Positions 7 to 36,431 of a stretch of DNA of 36,431 nucleotides are shown here, piece by piece (the stretch's first letter is position 1; each line of letters opens with the position of its first letter). Source of the DNA: Cochliopodium minus (taxonomy: Eukaryota > Discosea > Himatismenida > Cochliopodiidae). Both the position numbers and the translations under genes were made by a program. Under the pieces are notes generated by a model. That model saw only the letters and a program-made list of their open reading frames with translations. It searched no databases and was not told where the DNA came from. The stretch is from contig JAMYWO010000069.1 in assembly GCA_024220525.1 (NCBI GenBank), positions 92,544 to 128,974 of the forward strand, given 5' to 3'.

Positions 7-1527
7 TTACTGCATCTTGATCCAACACATTGAAATAGGTATTGCAACGTAATTACTCAATCCTCTTGATGTTTTTTTGAAAATGAGAAACTTTGAGTCG
101 GTCTTAAAGAAGTGATCTATTTTGCTGGATTTCTCATCTTCTCCCCTCTCCTTGCTTTCTTCTCTTTCATAGATTGTGAGCTTTGATTTTCTTTTCTTGT
201 AGAAATACCTGAATCCATACTTTATATTTTTCTCATTTCTGTTGACAACTTTCACGAAACAAAACTCTAGAGCATTTCTTTTTTCTTTTGGAAAAGGATT
301 CTTCTTGAAAGTTTGGATTTCCAAAGGATATACATCAGAGTTATTGGTTCTTCTCAAAACTTGCGATTTAGTCAATCCTTCAACGTTTGTGAGACTAACA
401 AAGTGGGATTGAAAAACGTGTTGAATAGACAAGATGGGCAAAGGGAAAGAATCTGTAGATTTCTTCTTTCTAGGGTAGAAATGTACAGGCTTTGTAGAAT
501 TGATAGAGGACCAAAGAAATATTCTGATATCCAATGCTTGACAAGCAGAGTAGATTGTTATTTCATCTCCAATGAAAGATTTGTCATTAGATACTTGATC
601 GCAATAATCTTCCCAGCTAAGATCGTGTGTTTTCGAGATCCATTTCTCCAATGTGAATTTTTTTTTGATGTATTCAGTATCAGAGAGATTCTTCTTGGTA
701 TGATGAGATCTCCTCTCCTTTTCATCTCCTATCTGATTGTTTTGATTGATATCATCCACAATCTTTGCCTCTTTTATCTCCTCCTTCATGTCGATCATAG
801 ATTTCAGCTTTAAATCTTTATCTCCTTCTTTCCAAAAGTTCTTCCACTTTTTTGTGAAGAGATATTTCTTTCTTTTCGGAGAGAATTTAAAGTTTCTGTT
901 CTTTTTCATCCAACTGATCACCTTCTTTGATATTTCTTCAGGATCTATCATGAAACTCTTTATCATCGAAAGTTGATGTGCAATCACTTCAAAGATGCCT
1001 CCCCTTTCTTTCGGGATAAGGTCGAAGAGCTTTAATTTTTCTGCAAGATCTTCCTCTTTCTCTTTTCCTTCTTTCTCCACATTAAAATTTAGGAGATATT
1101 TGCAATATTTATAATCTATAATTGAGAAATAATTCAGATAAATAATAGAAATAAATGAGGAAATTTGTAAATATATATAACTTACAATCGATTTGATGAT
1201 AAAACCAACTTCTCAATCCATTTTCTTCTTTTTCTTCCAAGTTACGAGAAAAATTCCTCTTCCCTCGATTATTACTGAGATTTCCATCCAATGATTCAAT
1301 TTGATCATTTCTATCATTCACTTGATCTGTTTCTGTTGTACTGATATCACTCATGTATCCATCATCAATCTTTTCTAATTCGATTTCCTCCTTTCCTGCC
1401 TTCAAATCATCTAAATTGGGTTGAAATTTTTCAAAAAATATTCAGATTTTTTTTATTATTTACTGTTTGCTCGCACACTTTGCACATAATTTATAGAACC
1501 TTCTTTGTTTAATTTTAATCTGTTCAT
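7..1527 (-). CDS. OTU-fold protein, probably catalytically dead
   Basis: The model has three exons (1527-1464, 1410-1186, 1115-7) encoding about 465 residues. All joins are GT-AG and in phase 1. The third exon carries an OTU (ovarian tumour) cysteine-protease fold. The usual D-G-N-C-L-F motif is replaced by E-R-G-G-I-F near residues 133-138, so the nucleophile position is Gly. It is followed by IAHQL, a middle strand around GDEITIYSACQALDIRIF, and the His-loop match SHFVSL near residue 335. OTU enzymes normally remove ubiquitin. Without the Cys this one would at most bind ubiquitin, which is inference. The region before the domain is acidic and low complexity, and a Lys-rich stretch sits inside the OTU fold. 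The ATG at 1527 rests on phase agreement only. The stop at 7-9 overlaps a GTAA, so a further exon to the left cannot be excluded. Confidence 0.6.
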
Positions 1528-4696: not shown

Positions 4697-6794
4697 TTAA
4701 ATAAGAAAAAAATTTGGACATCTGCTGTAAATTCTGAGCACAATTGAAGAGATTTTTACAAGATCCATAAGTTCAGAGATTACATTTTGAAAATAAAAGT
4801 TATCTTCAAATTTTAAATTGAATTCATTTGAAGAAATGTTCTTGAAATTGAGATGAGGTGAAAAGGGAAACAATGTCAGGGAAACAAAATGCTTGATTAA
4901 TTTTATTTTCAGATATTTTGGAACATTATATTTTGAGACTTTCAAAGTAGTCAAGAATGTCATAATTTGTGATTTAATTTCTTTTGAAAAATATTTGTAA
5001 TTATTTGGTTCGAAAGCTTCATAATTTTCTATTTCTTCAAACTTTTCAAGCAAATTTTTAGTTTTCATGAAATGTTTAATTTTTAGATAATCTTCTGTTT
5101 TAATATTGAAACCATTTGTGACAAAAAGAACAAGAACGGATTTTATTTCATCAAAATTTATTTTTCCAAAATTCAAATTTGAAAAATAATATTGAAGAGG
5201 ATTTAATCCACTCCTGTTTTTTATATGAACATTGCAGTTTAAATTTGTAACCAAATAATTTATAATTTCTAGATTTCCTCTTTCGCAAGAATTATGGAGG
5301 ATCGAATTACCATAATTATTTGATGAAAGGTTATCAGAACCAACTTTTTCTATTAAAAACTTTACTATTTTCAAATTTCGATTCCTTTTACAAGCAAGAA
5401 GTAAAACACAATCCCCTTGGTTATTTTTTATATTTACATCACAACCCATTTTATCAATTAAATACACAACTGATTCATAATTTTCACTGTTCAAAACTGA
5501 ATGGTGAAGAATGGTGTTTCCATCATTATTTTTAAAGTTCATTTTGAAATTGAATTCATTCAAAAATTTCAAAACTTCAATTTTGTTTTCTTGTTTACAA
5601 ATGTTGTGTAAAAAAGTATTCCCACTTTTATTTGTTGCATATATATCACATATTATTTCACTCACCAAGTACTTTATAATTTCAAATTTTCCAATAAAAC
5701 ATGATGCAATATGGACTATTGTATCACCATTTTTATTTTCGAGATTAACATCACACTCAACTTCTTCAATCAAATATCTTATCACTTCTAAAGAATTACA
5801 ATAACAAGCGTTATGTAGAATCGAATTTTTATTTTTGTTTTCCAAATTAATATCACATTTAACCTCTTCTATCAAATATTTTATTACTTTTATATTTTTG
5901 TTCAAAAGACATGCATTGTGAAGTAATGAATTACCTCCAGAATCAATTAGATCAACATCACATTTAATTTCTTTTACTAAATATTCAATCAATTCCAAAT
6001 TTTTATTTGAAAGACAGGCAGTATGAAGAATACTTAAACCTTCTCTATTTTTAGTCTTCACATCACATTTAACATCTTCAATTAAATATTTGATCACTTC
6101 AAAACTATTTCTATAACACGCCATCTGAAGTACAGAATCTTCATGTTTATTTTTAAAATCAATTATTCCTTTCTCAAATCTTTCAAACAAATATTTTATA
6201 GTTTCAAGGTTTTCATTTTGGTAAAATGCACAATGAAAAAATAAATTTCCTTGGAAATTCTTTACGTCTTTTAAATCTTCAAATTTTTCAATTAAATATT
6301 TTATAACTTCCAAACTGTTTCTATAACATGCTTTGTGAAGAATGGTCTCATTTAATACTGCAATTTTTACTTTATGATTCATTTTTCCAATCAAATATTT
6401 AATCACATCCAAATTACTATTCAGATAACATGCAGCATGCAGATAAGATTCTCCACTCTTATTTTCATAGTCTTGATCATACCCAAATATCTTTATCAAA
6501 TGTTTAATCACATTGAGATTCTTGTTGAATGCAAAACAATAAAATAGAATTGTTTCTCCCATCCTATTTTTCCTTTCGATATCAATCTGATTGTTTCTAA
6601 CTAGCTCATCCAATACATTTATATCATCAATCGTAGTCAAAATCAAATCTCCTTTGTTGAAATCATCTTTTAAAAATTAATTAGATGAATTTATGAAATG
6701 AGAATTATTCTAAACCTATTTCATAATTGCATTCATCTATCAAAAAATTTAAATAAATTTCTTCTCCTTTATAAATGCATATATCTTCTTTCAT
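4697..6794 (-). CDS. Ankyrin-repeat protein with short C-terminal module
   Basis: Two exons (6794-6716 and 6666-4697, phase 1 join through GTTTAG...TTTTAAAAG) give about 682 residues. After about 60 N-terminal residues, fourteen tandem ankyrin repeats follow, with a local consensus near N-K-x-G-N-x-L-H-x-A-C-x-x-N and EVIKYLIEEVKCDVN. The repeats are unusually uniform. The C-terminal 170 residues are helical and non-ankyrin. They contain KEIKSQIMTFLTTLK followed by VPKYLKIKLIKHF, which closely resembles the tail of the RCC1 protein at 29395-30962. Ankyrin repeats bind other proteins. The tail could recruit a common partner, as a SOCS or F-box does, but this is inference. No signal peptide or membrane segment is seen. 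The upstream gap to the neighbouring nuclease gene is only about 106 bp. Confidence 0.88.
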
Positions 6795-6900: not shown

Positions 6901-7927
6901 TCAATTGTAATCAAGTTGAGCCATCATTGAAATATGATCAGAATTGTAATTAATAGCAGAACCCTTAGGAAGATGAGGAGGCTCAAGCAAAGACAAACAT
7001 TTCAAAGAAGTGGGTATGTAAAAAATGTGGTCGTTAGATTCCTTATACTCTTTAAGGTTTTCTTCTTCATAAATAGTTTGGAATTTTTTTCCAAGAGAGG
7101 GCAAATCACCCAAATAATTATTTTTTTTCAACAATTCTTTATCACTAATATTCCCATTTAATATTATTTCTATTCCTCTGTTTTTTAGAGATAAATTGAA
7201 GTCTCCAGCAATGATAGTGGGTGTGGAGGGAGTGTATGAACGCAAGTTTTCTTTTGTAACGTTGACTTTTTCTATTTCAGAAGCGTATTCAAGTGTTTTG
7301 TTAATTAATAAGTGGGCTTGCACAATTTTTACTTTTGTTGACAAGAAATTTAAAAAGATTAGTAAATTAATTTATTTTTTTTGTGATTAATTAATTTATT
7401 AATTTATTAATTTTTTTTTTTTTACTTTCTTCTTCTTTCCATACCAATTGTGTATTTGTCAAAATCAATTTCTTTTGTGTCAAAGTATCTTCTATATAAT
7501 TAATGATTGCTATATTATCTCTGTTGAAAATCTCTCTTTTATTATCGGGTATATAATCCATCGATGTGGCATCATCCAAGTTGATACGCTTGGAATCTAT
7601 AAAATTAAATCTATCTTTCTTACATAAGATTGCACAACCATCTCCTCGAAGCCCATTTCTCTTTTCAAAAGAAGAGATATATCCAAATTCGATAAAATTA
7701 GGTTTAAAATAGGTATTGTAGTCCAATAATTCGCATTCTTGCAACAATAGTATATCTGGCTGATAAAAATCGATCTCCTGGTTTATCTTGGCGGATCTTT
7801 TCTTCCAATTATTGAATTTCTTATCATGTTGTTTAGCGAATTGAACGTAATTAGGAGATAAAATGTTATAGGTCATAATCTTGAAAGAGGTTGAAGATGG
7901 AAAAATATTTTGATTACGGAATAACAT
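6901..7927 (-). CDS. CCR4/Angel/nocturnin-like EEP nuclease
   Basis: Two exons (7927-7426 and 7331-6901, phase 1) encode about 310 residues of the endonuclease/exonuclease/phosphatase fold. Visible motifs are the metal-binding Asn in MTYNIL, the Glu in ILLLQE, the loop GDGCAILCKKDRF, NTQLVW (the usual NTHL position), GDFN, NDHIFY and the terminal NSDH. The order and spacing fit the CCR4-type deadenylase subgroup. There are no leucine-rich repeats, so it is closer to Angel, nocturnin or PDE12 than to CCR4 itself. Its expected role is 3'-5' removal of poly(A) or a related phosphodiester reaction, which comes from family knowledge. The ATG at 7927 is the first ATG in frame. A codon two positions earlier is TTG and was not used. 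The intron is about 94 nt, very A/T-rich, and ends in AAAAG. Confidence 0.85.
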
Positions 7928-8081
7928 TTTCAATTTTTTTTTATTTTAATTTCTGACGATAATAAACAAAATCAAAAAGAAATGATAAATCTTTATTAAA
8001 TAGTGAAAAAAAAATTTATTAAATTTTTGTTCTTTAGTTTTGTTAGAACTGTTTGGTTTTGAATAAATAACTTAATTTCTC

Positions 8082-13251: not shown

Positions 13252-14846
13252 TCAAAGATTATCTTCATCGGATTGCTCATCCAACTCAACATCCATCTTG
13301 ATAAAATTTCTGCTCTTGGAGGTCCTGAAATATCTCAAAAGAATGAAATAAAACATGGAGAAACCAACAATGAAACCAATGATTCCAAAAACAACGAAAA
13401 AAGGTCCAAAAGTAATTTTCTTTTGATTTCTTACACTAGAAATGTTGTCAAAAGGATTACACGAATCATCTTCATTATCTTCTACATAGTTTTGGCAATT
13501 ATCCAAAAAAGATTGGTAAGAAGCAGTGCAGTAGAGCTCGTAGAACTGCTCCAAAGGGCAGCCCAACTTGGCTTTTTCACTGTGGAAATGTAAACAAGAA
13601 TTAGGTTTACGTTCGCCATTATAATAAATATTAACATATCTTTGTCCATCTAAAGAGAAATTTTAATATTTAATAAATTTAAAGAAAAGATCTAAAAAAG
13701 TGAAATTCAAAAACAATTTTATAGGAATAAAGTAAAGAGATATGAAAAAACAAAAATTGATTATTTAAAAATTATTTAATTAAATAAAAATAAATTTGGA
13801 GAGATGTTTTACCTATGTTAGTTATTTCAAAGTTTATGTTTGCTGTGTAACCAGGTATGGAATCCATACTTTCATTCATATTTAAGGCTCCCAAAAGGGG
13901 CATGAGGGTGGTATCATGGCCACTGTAGATGATCCACTTTGGTTTGTTATTGTCCTTGAGAAGACTCTCGAATCTAGCCCTGAAATCCAAAAAGATGTTG
14001 GTGGAGACAATGGTGGAAAGATAATTCTCATTTTCAGTGAAAAAAATTTTCCATAATCTATCCCCAATCTTTATCACATCATTGATTTCTTGATCTGTCA
14101 AATTCTTCAAGATATTATGTCCCTCATGTTGTTTGGCACAATAGATCGGATCATAAAACTTCTCATGCCATTTCAATAGTGAAATATCTCCAGGCCATCC
14201 AAAGAGATCTTTGAGTTTGGCTGATAGAAGCTTTGTATTTTCTTCATTCTCCAATTCTTTGTATTTTTTGGATTGGAAGGAGATTTGGGCCTTATAATCT
14301 GCCACATTATCACAATTATTCAATGCATTCAGAATTAAATCATTCTTTTTGATGTTGCTACTGATTAATATAGGTAAATACGCCGATTTTAAATTCTCAA
14401 TGAACATCCCATGCAATACTGCATTTGCTGTTTGTAATGTTCTTGAATAATCAGATGATTCCACATAGATCTCGTTAATAGCCTTTTCGAAATCTGATGA
14501 GAGGAATCCTTGGTAGTTTTTCTTTAAATCTAATCCCAATTGTAATGCTTGATTCAATCCTTTTGTTGTCAAAAATCCTATAGTCTCATTCCATACATAT
14601 CTATAATTTTTTGGTGGTACATGTATTGGTGTTCTATCTCCATGTCTGAAAAATGTCATCACCTATAATTCAAATAAATTCATTTTATAATTCTTTATAT
14701 TGATGAATTCTCTTTAAATATATTCCATTCTTTAACTGATATTTTTTTTATAGGGGTGATGAATAAATTTTTATTACGAATTCCAACTTTGGTTCTGATG
14801 CTAAATATAAGGAAGCAAATAAAAACAATATTAACAATATTTTCAT
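13252..14846 (-). CDS. Histidine acid phosphatase, type I membrane (lysosomal type)
   Basis: Three exons (14846-14778, 14662-13813, 13649-13252) encode about 438 residues. Exon 1 is a signal peptide (MKILLILFLFASLYLAS) and joins in phase 0 to VMTFFRHGDRTP, which holds the RHGxRxP nucleophilic His. The proton-donor pair is in YSGHDTTLMPLLGAL. The C-terminal luminal part (IYYNGERKPNSC, CPLEQFYELY) matches prostatic and lysosomal acid phosphatases. A transmembrane segment follows (FVVFGIIGFIVGFSMFYFIL), then a short acidic cytosolic tail ending DEDNL. The layout is that of lysosomal acid phosphatase (ACP2). The expected reaction is hydrolysis of phosphomonoesters at low pH. The gene sits between AQR and a secreted-protein gene, with about 140-220 bp on either side. 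The exact substrate is unknown. Confidence 0.9.
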
Positions 14847-25633: not shown

Positions 25634-25686
25634 AAATTTGAACATAAAATAAAATAAAAAAAAATTGAAAAAATTATAATTTTTTA

Positions 25687-26717
25687 ATGGGAAATAAAAG
25701 TAATAAAGAAAAAAAAGATAAAGGAACACCAAAGGAGAAAAATACTCCTCAAAATGATACAATAAATAAAACTGTTCAACAAAATAACAAGGGATTAGAA
25801 GATATGGAATCCTTTGTACAAGAGGGGGTGGAGGTATTGATGTTAAATGACAATAAAATATCTTCTATACCCTCAACCATCAATAAATTGAGTGATACTT
25901 TGCAAGTGATCTATTTAGAGAACAATAATTTAACAGAGATATGCATTGAATTGAAATTATGCAACAATTTGGAAGAAATAAACTTTAATAATAATAAAAT
26001 ATGCATTTTGCCAGATATATTTGAAAATTTATTGAATCTTAAAAACTTATATCTCAACAATAATCAGATTGAAGCTATTCCATCTTCAATAGGAAACTGC
26101 AAAAGTATGTTAGTGATACATTTCAATGATAATAAAATATTGGAGATGCCTGATACTTTTTCTCAACTAAAAAATTTAAAGTTTTTGTCAATGAATAATA
26201 ACAAGTTGAAAAATATCATCAGTTCTTTGTCTGAATGTGAAAATTTGAAAAGATTATATCTAAATGGAAACGAAATTAATGAAATACCAGGAGAATTATC
26301 CAAAATACAATTAGAACAACTTTACTTGGGCACAATTTTAATTTTATTTAAATTTAATTTGGTTTTAATAATTTATTTTTAAAAGGAGATAATAAATTTG
26401 ATTTATTCCCACAAACAATACTTAAGATGGATAGCCTTTGTGAACTCACCCTGACAAATAACTTTATAGAAGAAGTACCAAAAGAGTTTTCTTTGACCAA
26501 TTTACAAAAGTTGACGATAATAAATAACAAACTCACTCGTTTGCCATCTACTTTGAATTTACCTTCACTTGAATGGATGTATTTGAATAACAATGAAATT
26601 AAAGAGTTACCATCAACTCTTTTATTGCCAAAATTACAATTTCTATGTGTTACTGGTAATGAAAATATAGAAGTTTCGGAGAACATTTCAAACAAATTAA
26701 CAAAATTTATTAAATAA
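25687..26717 (+). CDS. Leucine-rich-repeat protein, possibly N-myristoylated
   Basis: Two exons (25687-26329, 26386-26717) give about 324 residues. The start MGNKSNKEKK fits an N-myristoylation signal (Gly2, Ser5, basic residues), which would place it at a membrane. After a polar linker of about 45 residues, ten or so LRRs follow with units such as LPDIFENLLNLKNLYLNNNQ and IPSSIGNCKSMLVIHFNDNK. This is the L-x-x-L-x-L-x-x-N-x-L-x-x-[IL]-P class found in Shoc2/Ras-binding and plant-type LRRs. Frame and repeat continuity (QLYLG then DNKFDLFP) require an intron whose 5' end is GC (26330) and whose 3' end is TTTTAAAAG (26385). No GT donor fits. There is no kinase or other effector domain. The function is probably protein binding. 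Confidence 0.88.
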
Positions 26718-31009: not shown

Positions 31010-32404
31010 ATGTATAAATCTTTAATATACAAGGTAAATTAATTTCATTTGAATGATAAAACAATTATCCATTTAAATTGTTGATTTAGCACAGTTTTTC
31101 TTTCGCTATTGGATTTTTTGTGGCATATATTTTCATCAACATTTCCACATTGAATCACACTCAAAATCAACTTGCTGAAATCCTTATTTATCAACATAAT
31201 AACAGAGATAGATCGATATCTGCCACAAGAAATGAGGTGAAAGAAGAAAGGAAAGATCCTCCACAGAAAATGATTGAGCCTATAAAAATTGATGAGAAAA
31301 GGAAGAAATACTATACAATAGAGGAGCCTATATTTGAATTAGATGATAATCAAAAGATCATTTTTCCACAAGGAATTAAAAGAATATTAAGTAAAAGGAA
31401 ATTTAAATTATATAAACTATAAATACCATAATCAGGAATAGATTAATACTCACACCATTATCTTCTCAATTAATTTTGAAATTATTTTATGTGAATCATT
31501 GATTATAATTCTATTTTAAAGTTGATGTTGGTGTATTGGTTAGATCTGGATTTCATGATTACGTGGTGAAGAATGAGGATGTATTTTTGATTGGATTTGA
31601 GCCAGATATCCTCAATTTCAATAAGGCAGTCACATCAAATCCGAAAAATTCAAAGATCATCAAAGCTGCGGTATCAGATATACAAGGAGTATTACCATTC
31701 TTTCCACATTCAGGTAAAAAAAAAAATATATATATATTTTGGAGATTTTAGATCACATGTGAATCATCATTGATTTCAACAAATATATCTTGTCATCTTG
31801 ATTTTATCATCATTATATATTTATTTAATATAAAGGTGGAACTGGATCAGGATTATCTTTAGAAAAAAATACAAATGCTTTTTTGGGTCAATCATATTTA
31901 ACATCAGTGATCGTCTTGGAGGATTTGTTAAAGTATATAGATAATAAATACAAACTTTTTTATTTAAAGGTATTTATTTTGAAAGTTGGATTGCTCTTCT
32001 TTAAAGATTTACTTTTTTTTTTTGTTTTAGGTAGATGCACAAGGTTTTGATTTACACATTCTGAGATCTGCGGGGAAATTAATTCACAATATCGAGAGTA
32101 TTACTGCTGAATGTCAAGAATTGGAAAGAGGAGATCCAAGAGAGTAAGAATTTTATTTTTAAACTTTTGAAAATAATTTTATTTATATTTATTTATTTTT
32201 TAAAATAGATACACTGGAACTTCTTGCCATCTTTCGGAAATGAAGGAATATATGATCAGTGTTGGGTTCTCTCATATTGTTTGTGATCCTACTGCCGGGT
32301 ATGCTTCTATTCGTGAGATAAATTGTCACTTCGGTAAAACTGAGGAAGCGGCAAAATTTGCACAGACTATGTTCAAATTACAACTTCCAGATGTTTATTA
32401 TTAA
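31010..32404 (+). CDS. FkbM-family SAM-dependent methyltransferase, type II membrane
   Basis: Six exons (31010-31033, 31090-31390, 31522-31713, 31836-31969, 32031-32143, 32209-32404) give about 319 residues. The first 24-nt exon encodes MYKSLIYK. It joins in phase 0 to HSFSFAIGFFVAYIFINIS, giving a short cytosolic tail and a signal-anchor typical of Golgi type II enzymes. A charged stem follows, then the FkbM methyltransferase domain: IDVGVLVRSGFHDYVV, FLIGFEPDILNF (SAM-binding acidic residue), KAAVSD, SVIVLEDLLKYI and LKVDAQGFDLHILRSAG, the most diagnostic motif. ITAECQE and a C-terminal helix follow. FkbM enzymes often O-methylate sugars or polyketides, so glycan methylation in the Golgi is a reasonable inference. 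The gene starts just 47 bp after the RCC1 stop. Confidence 0.88.
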
Positions 32405-32801: not shown

Positions 32802-32981
32802 AATCTCAATAGAGCACAATACTTAATTCCGACTTCGAGTTGGAAAGGAATATATGATGATTACGAATTCATGGTGTTTGCAATGAATACCTTTGGAGGT
32901 ATTGGCATACAAGGAAATCGTGTAATTGGGAGAATGGCAACGGGATTGGGAAATGTCCTGAATATTTCAGGAAAGGAAGCT
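32802..32981 (+). mobile_element. Retroelement-like ORF fragment (possible LINE), cut at the N
   Basis: An open frame of 60 codons reads into the single N without a stop. Its core (FMVFAMNTFGGIGIQGNRVI, then GRMATGLGNVLNISG) resembles, from memory, the conserved segment found C-terminal to the reverse-transcriptase domain in many eukaryotic retroelement proteins (pattern F-x-P-F-A-x-E-T-x-G-G-x-G, then an I-x-x-x-A helix). Codons are less A/T-biased than in neighbouring exons (CCG, TCG, GGC, ACG). I cannot tell the family. LINE is only the likeliest guess, and a host exon is possible. The frame is open only from 32802, and a tentative splice acceptor precedes 32811. Confidence 0.35.
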
Positions 32982-32982
32982 N
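32982..32982. other. Ambiguous base N, probable assembly join
   Basis: This is the only non-ACGT base in the window. An open frame on the plus strand runs into it from the left. On its right, the minus-strand kinase gene loses homology here, at an apparent GTAA splice donor. Both observations fit a gap or mis-join better than a simple sequencing ambiguity. Confidence 0.6.
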
Positions 32983-35900
32983 TTACTTCCATATGTTGAT
33001 TCTTCTCTCAACTTTTGCTTCTTTGAATTCCAACTTTCGGTGAAAGGCCAACAATTATCAATCATTTCTTCCTCACTATTATAATAAGAGGAGGAAGTCT
33101 TTAAAGATCCTTCCAAATTCAATTTTGGAATTTCTAATTTAGAATTTATTAGAGGTACATCTTCTTTATTGGGATCGTAGTGTTTCCAAAACTCTGTGAA
33201 AGCGTTTTCCAATGAACCTGCTTCATCAATAATCGATTCACAATCTTCAAGTGATTTTTCACTGGTTGCAACCTTTTTTGAAAAAGTTAAATGAATTTAA
33301 AATATTATCTTTTAAAGAAATTCCATTAATAAAAACTAAAGTAAGAATGTTTAAAAACTTTTTAAAAAAAAAAAACAGAAGAAATAATGTTAAAAAATGA
33401 TTTAATGTATTTTAATTTTCATAATAAATTTAAATCAAAAAATAAAAAAAGAAATCAGAGTAATAATTTTAAAAAAAAATAATCATTCATAAAAATAAAA
33501 AAATCAATTAAAAAAATTATAAATGAAATCGATACCTCAAAATACATTAAAACAGGTTTGGTCGCTGTGTTGAAAATGTTCACATTCTCTGTCATTATGT
33601 TTATGACAATATGGAATTTGTCTCCGTAGTGCAAAGTTGGCAAGTAAAGCTTTCTCTTGAAGATGATGTTGTTAAGAAAGTGAATACTCTGTTCGACAAC
33701 TTCCTTTCCTTTTTCCCTTGAGTTGAAACCTTTTACAATAAAAATAAAAAATTTGATTAAAATGAAAATAATTATTAAAAAATAATAAAAAATAAATAAA
33801 AAAGAAAATAAAAAATAAAAAATGAAAAATTTGAAATTTGAAATAAAAATAAAACTTGAAATAAAAAATTTGAAATAAAAAATAAATATTAATATTAAAA
33901 ATAAAAGATAAAAAATAAAAAATAAAAAATATAAAATGTTTTACCTAACAACTCTAATTCGTTTACAAATTGATATAGATTCTTGAAATATGAAAGAGGA
34001 TCTTGTTTTGGTTTCCATTTTTTATCTATCAAATCATTCATCTTTTGTAAGTGTGAAAGAGATTTTTTATCTGCAAGATCATCCTCCAAAATCACTTTAA
34101 GTTGGATCTGAAGTTTGAGGGAGAAGTGAAGATCTTTCGTACATTTTTCAGTGAGGAAAAATTCTAAACTTTTTGAAACTTTGTCCTGTGCAAGAAGACA
34201 ACAAAATTGTGGCAAATAATACTCTTTAAAAAAAAATGAAAAATAAAAAATAAAAAAGTAAATAATAAAAAATAAAAAATTTGAAATAAAAAATAAAAAT
34301 AAATAAAAATAAAAATAAAAAATAAAAATAAAAATAAATAAAAATAAAAATTTGAAATAAAAATAAAAATAAAAAAATAAATAAAAATGAAAAATGAAAA
34401 ATTTGAAATAAAAAATTTGAAATAAAAAATTTGAAATAAAAAATCAAAAACAAAAATAAAATTTAAAAAAAATAAAAAAAAAAATATTAAAAACAATTTT
34501 ATTTTTCTTACCAATTTCTGAATTTGATAGATTGACAGTCCAACTGTTGATGAGTCCTTCTGTTGGCCAGTTTGTTTGAGGATTGTAAGATGGGTTTTCG
34601 ATGTATTTTATGAATGAGTCGATCATCTTATACACCACACTATGTTTGTTTTTGTGGTAAATGTTTTCGTTTTGAAACAAAACAACCAATTTAGATCTGA
34701 GTTGCTCTGCTTCTAATTTCGGAAGTTTTGGGAAACTTCCATAAAATTCCGAAATGAAAGCAATTTCTGCAACCAAATGTTCCAAGTTACATCTAGAAAT
34801 GAGCTCCAGTACAATATTTGTTTCACTAACTCCCGCAGACAACATTTGCTTGTAAACATGATGAAGAAGATCAATTTTCTCAGCAGGAGAGTGTTTGGTG
34901 ACGATTGTGTTGAACATCCTAACTGCATCTAACAAGATGAGAGAATCTTCTTCTTGATCTTCTACTGACTCCTCTATGATCTTGTTCTTCTTCCTCCAAA
35001 AATAAAATTCACTGTCTTTCTTTGAACAGATTTCCAAATAGTGAGAGAAAACATTAGAATAGATCAGTGGGAAGACCAGTTTTTGAATCAATACTTTGAT
35101 GGGTATTTCCACCAGCTTTTTGAATTCTTCGTCTTCTCTGTCTAGGCCTAGTTTTATGAAAATCAAACCAAAAACTTTGTCCAACAAACGATATGCCTCA
35201 TCTACAATTACGTTCTGTTGCATTTGTTTATTATTTTCGAGCCAAGGTTTCAACTCTTTAAAAAATGAAAAGAAAAATACACTTAGTTTAATAAAATATT
35301 TAAAAAGTGATAATATTTTCAAAAATAAAACAAGAAATTAAAATAAAATGAAATATGAATAAAAATAACTAAAATAAAGGTAAAATAATGTTAAATATTT
35401 AAAATGAAAATTTTCTTACCTTTTTGGAGTTCTTGACCTATTGGACTGGAAGAATTTAAACAGTTGTTCAGTTGTATTCTATTTCCTTTGAAACGCTCAT
35501 GTGACTTCCATTTTACATTGAATACGTCTCCGTTGTCATAGATGAGAACACCCGATCCAATTTTTCTTCCATGACTCCAATATCCCACATAAGTAACGAG
35601 GTATGTTTCAAGAGTACCTAATCCGTCCATCAAATTGTTTTTCCAATGACCTTTAATTTGTTTTAAAAATAAATTAAAAAATTGAATTTAGAAATTTGAA
35701 ATTTGAAATAAAAAAAATTAAAAAAATTATTACCGTAATAAGTTTCTCCATTTGGGTAATAACACATTCCTTTTCCAGTCCTTATATCTTCGTAAAATTC
35801 TCCGATATAGCACTCTCCGTCGGATTTTAGTTCTATTGCTTTGTTTCCGTGGCGCTGTATGGTAGGGATTCCATCCTTCAATATTCCCTTGACACTTCCA

Positions 35901-36414
35901 ATATAGGTATTTCCTTCTGGAGTAGAAACAGTACCAATACCAATTGGCAATCCTAATTAAAAAATAAAAAATAAAAAAGTAAAAATAAAATAAATAAAAA
36001 ATAATAAAATAAAAAAATAATAAACAATAAAAAAACAGAAAAATAAAAATAAAAAATAAAAAAAATTCACCATCTTTCCAATCTCCTGAAAATTCATTCT
36101 GATCTTCATATCTTATTTTTGCTCTTCCATTAACTTGATCTTCTGACCAGTTTCCTATCAATGTGTACTTTTCTCCACGTAGACACCCTGTGCCGGATCT
36201 CACTCCCATCATGAGATCACCTTCGTAAGCCTCCATTTTGTTATCGTTGTTTCTGTATTGGTACCATCTGTATCTAGGATCTGGCATTTTTTGAACGATC
36301 TCATCAATTTTACATAGAAAGGGAAATTCACTTTGGATGCTGAAAGTACATACTGGGGTAATGAGATCCCAATAAGCCAACTGTTTTCCCTTTCTCCTTT
36401 CTGTTGTTTCAGAT
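32983..36414 (-). CDS. MORN-VPS9-phosphatidylinositol 4-kinase fusion, partial at both ends
   Basis: Seven exons (36414-36071, 35952-35734, 35650-35420, 35255-34512, 34223-33945, 33729-33536, 33272-32987) read in one continuous phase for about 767 residues. The first visible exon starts in mid-codon, so the N-terminus lies beyond the right edge. Its MORN-like units include YEGDLMMGVRSGTG, LIGNWSEDQVNG, YIGEFYEDIRTGKG and HWKNNLMDGLG. The next part resembles a VPS9 Rab5-GEF domain (HSPAEKIDLLHHVYKQML, LEHLVAEIAFISEFYG). Then comes a type III beta PI4-kinase helical region (NSEIEYYLPQFCCLL, EKCTKDLHFSLKLQ) and the pre-kinase segment KRKLYLPTLHYGDKFH with KPVLMYFEV. The last residues KLREESTYG match the position just before the kinase N-lobe (R-I-R-E-G-S-P-Y-G-H in human PI4KB). 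The kinase domain itself is missing after the N at 32982. Confidence 0.8.
33730..33944 (-). repeat. T-rich low-complexity intron of the MORN-VPS9-PI4K gene
   Basis: On the coding strand this intron is made of TTTTTATTTT runs with interspersed TTTCAAATTT units. The same unit dominates the next intron upstream. Confidence 0.85.
34224..34511 (-). repeat. Long T-rich intron with TTTCAAATTTTTTAT units
   Basis: This intron of about 288 nt is nearly pure (on the plus strand) AAATAAAAAT plus several copies of AAATTTGAAATAAAA. It lies between the VPS9 exon and the PI4K helical exon. The direct repeats look like replication-slippage products. Confidence 0.88.
35953..36070 (-). repeat. T-rich low-complexity intron between MORN exons
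   Basis: On the plus strand the sequence is AAATAAAA-type repeats. On the coding strand it is T-rich and ends TTAATTAG. There is no other content. Confidence 0.8.
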
Positions 36415-36431
36415 CTTTAAAAATTAAAAAA

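Follow-up and report, generated by a model that had tools for sequence, protein, structure and literature searches.

Results

Organization of the gene

The window analysed here is a stretch of 36,431 nucleotides from Cochliopodium minus (bases 92544-128974 of contig JAMYWO010000069.1, hereafter C69), part of an AT-rich eukaryotic genome that was searched as 44.65 Mb in 598 contigs. Near its right end lies a gene, called copy B here, which joins MORN repeats to a segment resembling the part of the phosphatidylinositol 4-kinase PI4KB that precedes the kinase core, and a tandem copy of it, copy C, is found on the same contig. The features of copy B, together with related exons at the left end of the window, are as follows.

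36071..36414, minus strand: exon 1, lead-in and first MORN repeats; its 5' side lies in the gap, and the acceptor AG is just inside the window end
35734..35952, minus strand: exon 2, MORN repeats
35420..35650, minus strand: exon 3, MORN repeats and linker
34512..35255, minus strand: exon 4, sub-threshold VPS9-like region in which the exchange residues were not found; first residues of the PIK match
33945..34223, minus strand: exon 5, PI4KB-type accessory (PIK) region, EYYLPQF...
33536..33729, minus strand: exon 6, linker and likely first strands of the kinase N-lobe (LYLPTLHYGD...PVLMYFEV)
32983..33272, minus strand: exon 7, incomplete; lead to the kinase, ending WNSKKQKLREESTYGS
32982, no strand: single-N assembly gap that cuts copy B ahead of the kinase core
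11..1527, minus strand: three N-terminal exons (1527-1464, 1410-1186, 1115-11), weakly OTU-like, ending ...ISMCWIKM at a splice donor

All six introns of copy B are of the GT-AG type, and the joined frame is open for 766 codons while the other two frames contain 52 and 50 stops, so the seven exons do run in unbroken phase, as a first-pass annotation made from the sequence had proposed. The MORN repeats that it named were confirmed by the Pfam search (E 2.3e-14; 52.7 bits against a cut-off of 22.5), in which three stretches passed. The splice from NSEI to EYYLPQF is likewise in phase, and copy C has an equivalent NSEI/EFFTLQF junction. The statement that the VPS9-like and PI4-kinase parts meet within a single exon holds only narrowly: some seven residues of the PIK match, which begins at residue 506, belong to the end of exon 4, and most of it lies in exon 5. 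Profile matches and the likeness of the lead strands support the PI4KB-type helical/pre-kinase region. Like PI4KB and Pik1, copy B has an apparent PIK accessory region with the YLPQ core, followed by similar lead strands and a W..K..LRE.S.YG stretch ahead of the kinase; it differs from them in having MORN and VPS9-like parts in place of the usual N-terminus and in that its kinase core is unseen. The assembly cuts copy B at both ends, and the window is flanked by 7,509 N on the right and 4,141 N on the left; thus, neither the start of the gene nor its kinase core can be read.

The tandem copy and selection

A genome search with the joined protein placed copy C at C69 139804-142245, on the same strand as copy B, where it covers residues 1-608 of the 766 with 73-87% identity exon by exon (78% of amino acids in exon 1, and 71% over its first 42 codons). 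Four intron positions are common to the two copies, and the introns differ in length (118/131, 83/167, 164/181 and 288/100 bases in B/C). Over 603 codons, our own Nei-Gojobori script gave 0.466 synonymous (dS) and 0.100 nonsynonymous (dN) substitutions per site, a ratio of 0.215, and all gaps were whole codons, which indicates purifying selection on the exons common to both copies, the only ones that the estimate covers, as copy C lacks counterparts of exons 6 and 7. The dS values, 1.07 in exon 1 but 0.26 in exon 4, suggest that gene conversion has acted on the 3' half of the two copies.

The VPS9-like region of exon 4

The first-pass annotation had read exon 4 as a VPS9-like guanine nucleotide exchange module for Rab5. 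A weak VPS9 likeness stands, but none of the four Pfam queries reached the curated cut-off of 27 bits: the whole copy B protein scored 15.9 (E 0.017), exon 4 alone 19.1 (E 0.0017), a trimmed window stretch 20.1 (E 0.00087) and copy C 19.3 (E 0.0015). The absence of a VPS9 match had been named beforehand as evidence against the proposal, and the outcome lies halfway, with sub-threshold matches only. The aspartate finger and the matching tyrosine were not found in exon 4 of either copy. At the positions of Rabex-5 Asp313 and Pro317, both copies show a gap (hhalign) or other residues in an alignment that is itself weak, and at that of Tyr354 another residue, as judged by eye. Passages of a study of Lpg0393 (PMC4379102) describe exchange as severely affected by mutation of the residues equivalent to Asp313 and Tyr354. 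We conclude that exchange activity is not to be expected of the exon-4 region, which is possibly of VPS9 fold.

That the region is instead a lineage-specific helical linker unrelated to VPS9 is quite possible, though we put it at somewhat less than even, and it would be compatible with the overall reading of the gene favoured below. Chance matches of nearly equal strength occurred in Pfam, since one shuffled sequence matched Sep15_SelM at E 0.0051 and another region, the 370-residue left-end exon, matched InhA-like_MAM at E 0.0018. In all three window queries the E-value of DUF3924 over the residues matched by VPS9 was the better of the two; in copy C the order was reversed (0.021 for DUF3924, 0.0015 for VPS9). 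A profile built from exon 4 of the two copies matched nothing in the PDB, and an AlphaFold2 model of the exon alone was all-helical with a confidence score (pLDDT) of 46.6, which is of no use for the fold. Against a mere linker, none of eight shuffles and not the one reversed sequence matched VPS9 in Pfam; only 3 of 2000 shuffles reached the score of the window exon in a home-made VPS9 profile, and in a home-made profile of VPS9 with its helical bundle the window exon stood above all 2000, with the bundle in register.

Copy C scored 8.5 in the VPS9 and helical bundle profile, under the best shuffle (11.2), and a two-sequence VPS9 profile was equalled by 383 of 2000 shuffles. Pairwise alignments fell out of register both with AtVPS9a (reached by 455 of 1000 shuffles for the window and 819 of 1000 for copy C) and with Rabex-5 (23 and 19 of 1000, respectively). 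Alignment with hhalign to a small VPS9 alignment gave P 0.019 and a probability of 2.5%, and in the full-profile alignment the helix IQKLVFPLIYSNVF falls on LEKYVMTKLFTRVF of AtVPS9a.

The PI4KB-type part and the kinase core

Several results weigh against a PI4KB assignment with a kinase core to follow. The PF21245 profile gave 24.9 and 26.9 bits, just short of its curated cut-off of 27, and the PI4KA-like contigs C435 and C49 scored 25.2 and 24.7 with the same profile. Among the five matches of the PF21245 genome search, exon 5 of the window was absent and that of copy C appeared at E 0.173. A PDB search with residues 265-766 ranked PI4KB first at a non-significant E of 0.38, and a slight chance of kinship with C49 persists (2 and 3 of 1000 shuffles). 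In copy C, too, the gene stops short of the kinase, after exon 5.

No PF00454 kinase core with ATP-binding and catalytic motifs is present in the readable part of copy B, whose sequence ends at the gap before the core. The genome was searched for it with PF00454 (38 matches) and with the kinase of the canonical PI4KB encoded elsewhere in this genome, on C89 (25 matches). Open reading frames were read on seven contigs (C89, C435, C49, C574, C493, C210 and C38, leaving out C130, C2, C167, C12 and C364 among others), and no core could be assigned to copy B among the matches read, which also counts against the assignment, as does the fact that the strongest matches to the C89 kinase after C89 itself were C435 (47%) and a 35-residue piece on C210 (86%). 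By eye, C435 and C49 are PI4KA-like, C493 and C38 class III PI3K-like and C574 a DEP/PX-type PI3K, and all were rejected as the missing kinase; the C210 candidate was rejected as a 35-residue piece beside a gap.

At 86% identity with the kinase of the canonical PI4KB and right next to an assembly gap, that piece (C210:42453-42557; L051 2954-3058) is possibly a second or broken PI4KB copy.

These results leave some room for a kinase-less scaffold derived from PI4KB, in which the core was lost and the MORN, helical and PIK parts were kept as a membrane adaptor; we consider this unlikely, though by no means negligible. Both copies end ahead of the kinase core, no fitting core was seen among the matches read, and intron 5 of copy C runs into plus-strand, thus opposite-strand, open reading frames that look ankyrin-like by eye (L029 1593-2320), with no N in the locus. 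However, it is precisely at an assembly gap that copy B stops, its lead still PI4KB-like, contigs shorter than about 10 kb appear to be absent from the assembly searched, and the break in copy C sits in T-rich low-complexity sequence (TTTTTATTTT), where a misjoin is easy. Either true loss or misassembly may account for this break.

The N-terminal half

Copy C is assembled further upstream, from an ATG at L029 6462 through three extra coding exons of about 470 residues, which join the MORN exon in phase via a 192-base GT-AG intron. The exons at window positions 11-1527 correspond to this region (65.4% identity over 442 codons, dN/dS 0.205), and they may belong to a further gene copy or be the 5' half of copy B itself. 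The left end of the window stops ten bases into the intron between the N-terminal and MORN parts, and the right end (36414-36431) holds only its last 17 bases; the gene may be present here in three tandem copies, or a single gene may be divided by a unit of 36 kb that is tandem or circular.

OTU matches stayed below the cut-off of 23.3 bits in all four queries that gave a score (15.7, 17.1 and 16.7 with copy C, whole or in pieces, 15.5 with the left-end piece), and neither a 54-residue piece of copy C nor the left-end exon of 370 residues gave an OTU match in Pfam. At the expected position of the Cys motif, both the copy C and the left-end sequences read GGIF by eye, with no catalytic Cys. The region is possibly a dead OTU fold, to judge from its sequence. 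Another match to part of it, at C395:3729-3971, is 74% identical with four stops within the match, some perhaps intronic, and may be a further copy or copy fragment.

Discussion

The first-pass annotation had proposed a fusion of MORN, VPS9 and PI4-kinase parts. MORN repeats and a PI4KB-type helical/pre-kinase segment do stand in one gene, but the VPS9 part is sub-threshold and the kinase core unseen. The gene is probably a divergent PI4KB paralogue with the order MORN repeats, weak VPS9-like region, PIK region and PI4KB-like lead, in which a kinase core would follow in the gap at 32982 and the VPS9-like part would not catalyse exchange. MORN repeats serve membrane association, and those of this protein may hold it at a membrane; the VPS9-like region, without GDP exchange, could act as a spacer or as a surface that binds a Rab or another partner, and phosphatidylinositol 4-phosphate (PI4P) would be made at the membrane where the MORN repeats dock. 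The helical region of PI4KB binds Rab11. The coupling to PI4P synthesis that had been proposed for the protein cannot be claimed, because the assembly holds no kinase core.

Should the kinase core prove to be there, a single natural fusion protein would couple PI4P production directly to docking at a membrane and perhaps also to a surface for Rab binding; to our knowledge, separate proteins provide this link in the cells studied so far. Even without the core, the front half of PI4KB would have been recruited into a new, selected and tandemly duplicated protein. Other proteins that combine MORN repeats or a Rab regulator with a phosphoinositide kinase, plant PIP5K among them, likewise have a membrane or Rab-related module and a kinase in one chain, although of other kinase families.

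A more elaborate form of the paralogue reading would be a complete polypeptide of OTU-like, MORN, VPS9-like and PI4KB parts in tandem copies, whose pseudo-exchange domain binds an endosomal Rab, leaves its nucleotide in place and so brings PI4P synthesis to the Rab-marked membrane; we regard this as doubtful. Improbable in turn is the reading of the first-pass annotation, a bifunctional enzyme whose Rab5-type exchange domain and PI4-kinase are both live. In its favour, the order of MORN repeats before a VPS9-like region is that of alsin (ALS2) and also of protist MORN-Vps9 proteins, sub-threshold VPS9 matches occur in both copies, and the helical bundle profile singled out the window exon from its shuffles. 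Nevertheless, the Asp313, Pro317 and Tyr354 equivalents were found in neither copy, residues whose importance the Lpg0393 mutants illustrate for the first and last, the bundle score of copy C, the two-sequence profile and both pairwise comparisons do not follow suit, and no kinase core is seen.

The alsin arrangement itself is only partly reproduced, with MORN at E 2.3e-14 and VPS9 sub-threshold: the exchange residues were not found, a PI4KB part follows, and no DH/PH match was obtained in the regions of copies B and C that were scanned. MORN-Vps9 proteins are described from trypanosomatids, Bodo and Naegleria in passages of a Vps9 survey that also names novel Vps9 domain partners; PI3K/PI4K does not occur in its main text (PMC6032885). 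Among the papers listed in searches of the open-access literature, none described the MORN-VPS9-PI4K layout in its title or at the beginning of its abstract, which is a weak test of absence, and among 74 pattern matches in viral contigs none was related.

Finally, an assembly chimera of a MORN gene and a PI4KB gene, which the gaps on both sides and the gap-rich contig might suggest, is very unlikely indeed, because copy C has the same order and splice joints at 73-87% identity with different intron lengths.

Neighbouring genes

Elsewhere in the window, matches were obtained to ankyrin (4697-6676; 5.6e-72), the endonuclease/exonuclease/phosphatase family (7391-7945; 3.5e-9), histidine phosphatase branch 2 (13772-14662; 8.6e-22), the beta-lactamase family PF00144 (24474-25166; 8.8e-30) and leucine-rich repeats (25669-26382; 3.2e-20), and a tRNA scan of the window found none. 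On the plus strand, 31090-32404 reads by eye as a methyltransferase of the FkbM type with a membrane helix at its N-terminus. The plus-strand frame at 32802-32981 gave no Pfam match (with a query approximate in seven letters at its start); it meets the single N at 32982 from the other side, so that the N may interrupt a pair of converging genes. A possible mobile element lies at L064 1961-4919, beyond the gap that adjoins the window on the left: its open reading frames resemble, by eye, an integrase and a helicase of the RecD/Pif1 type, and the only Pfam matches there, AAA_19 (E 0.0022) and Paf67 (E 0.0073), stayed below cut-off.
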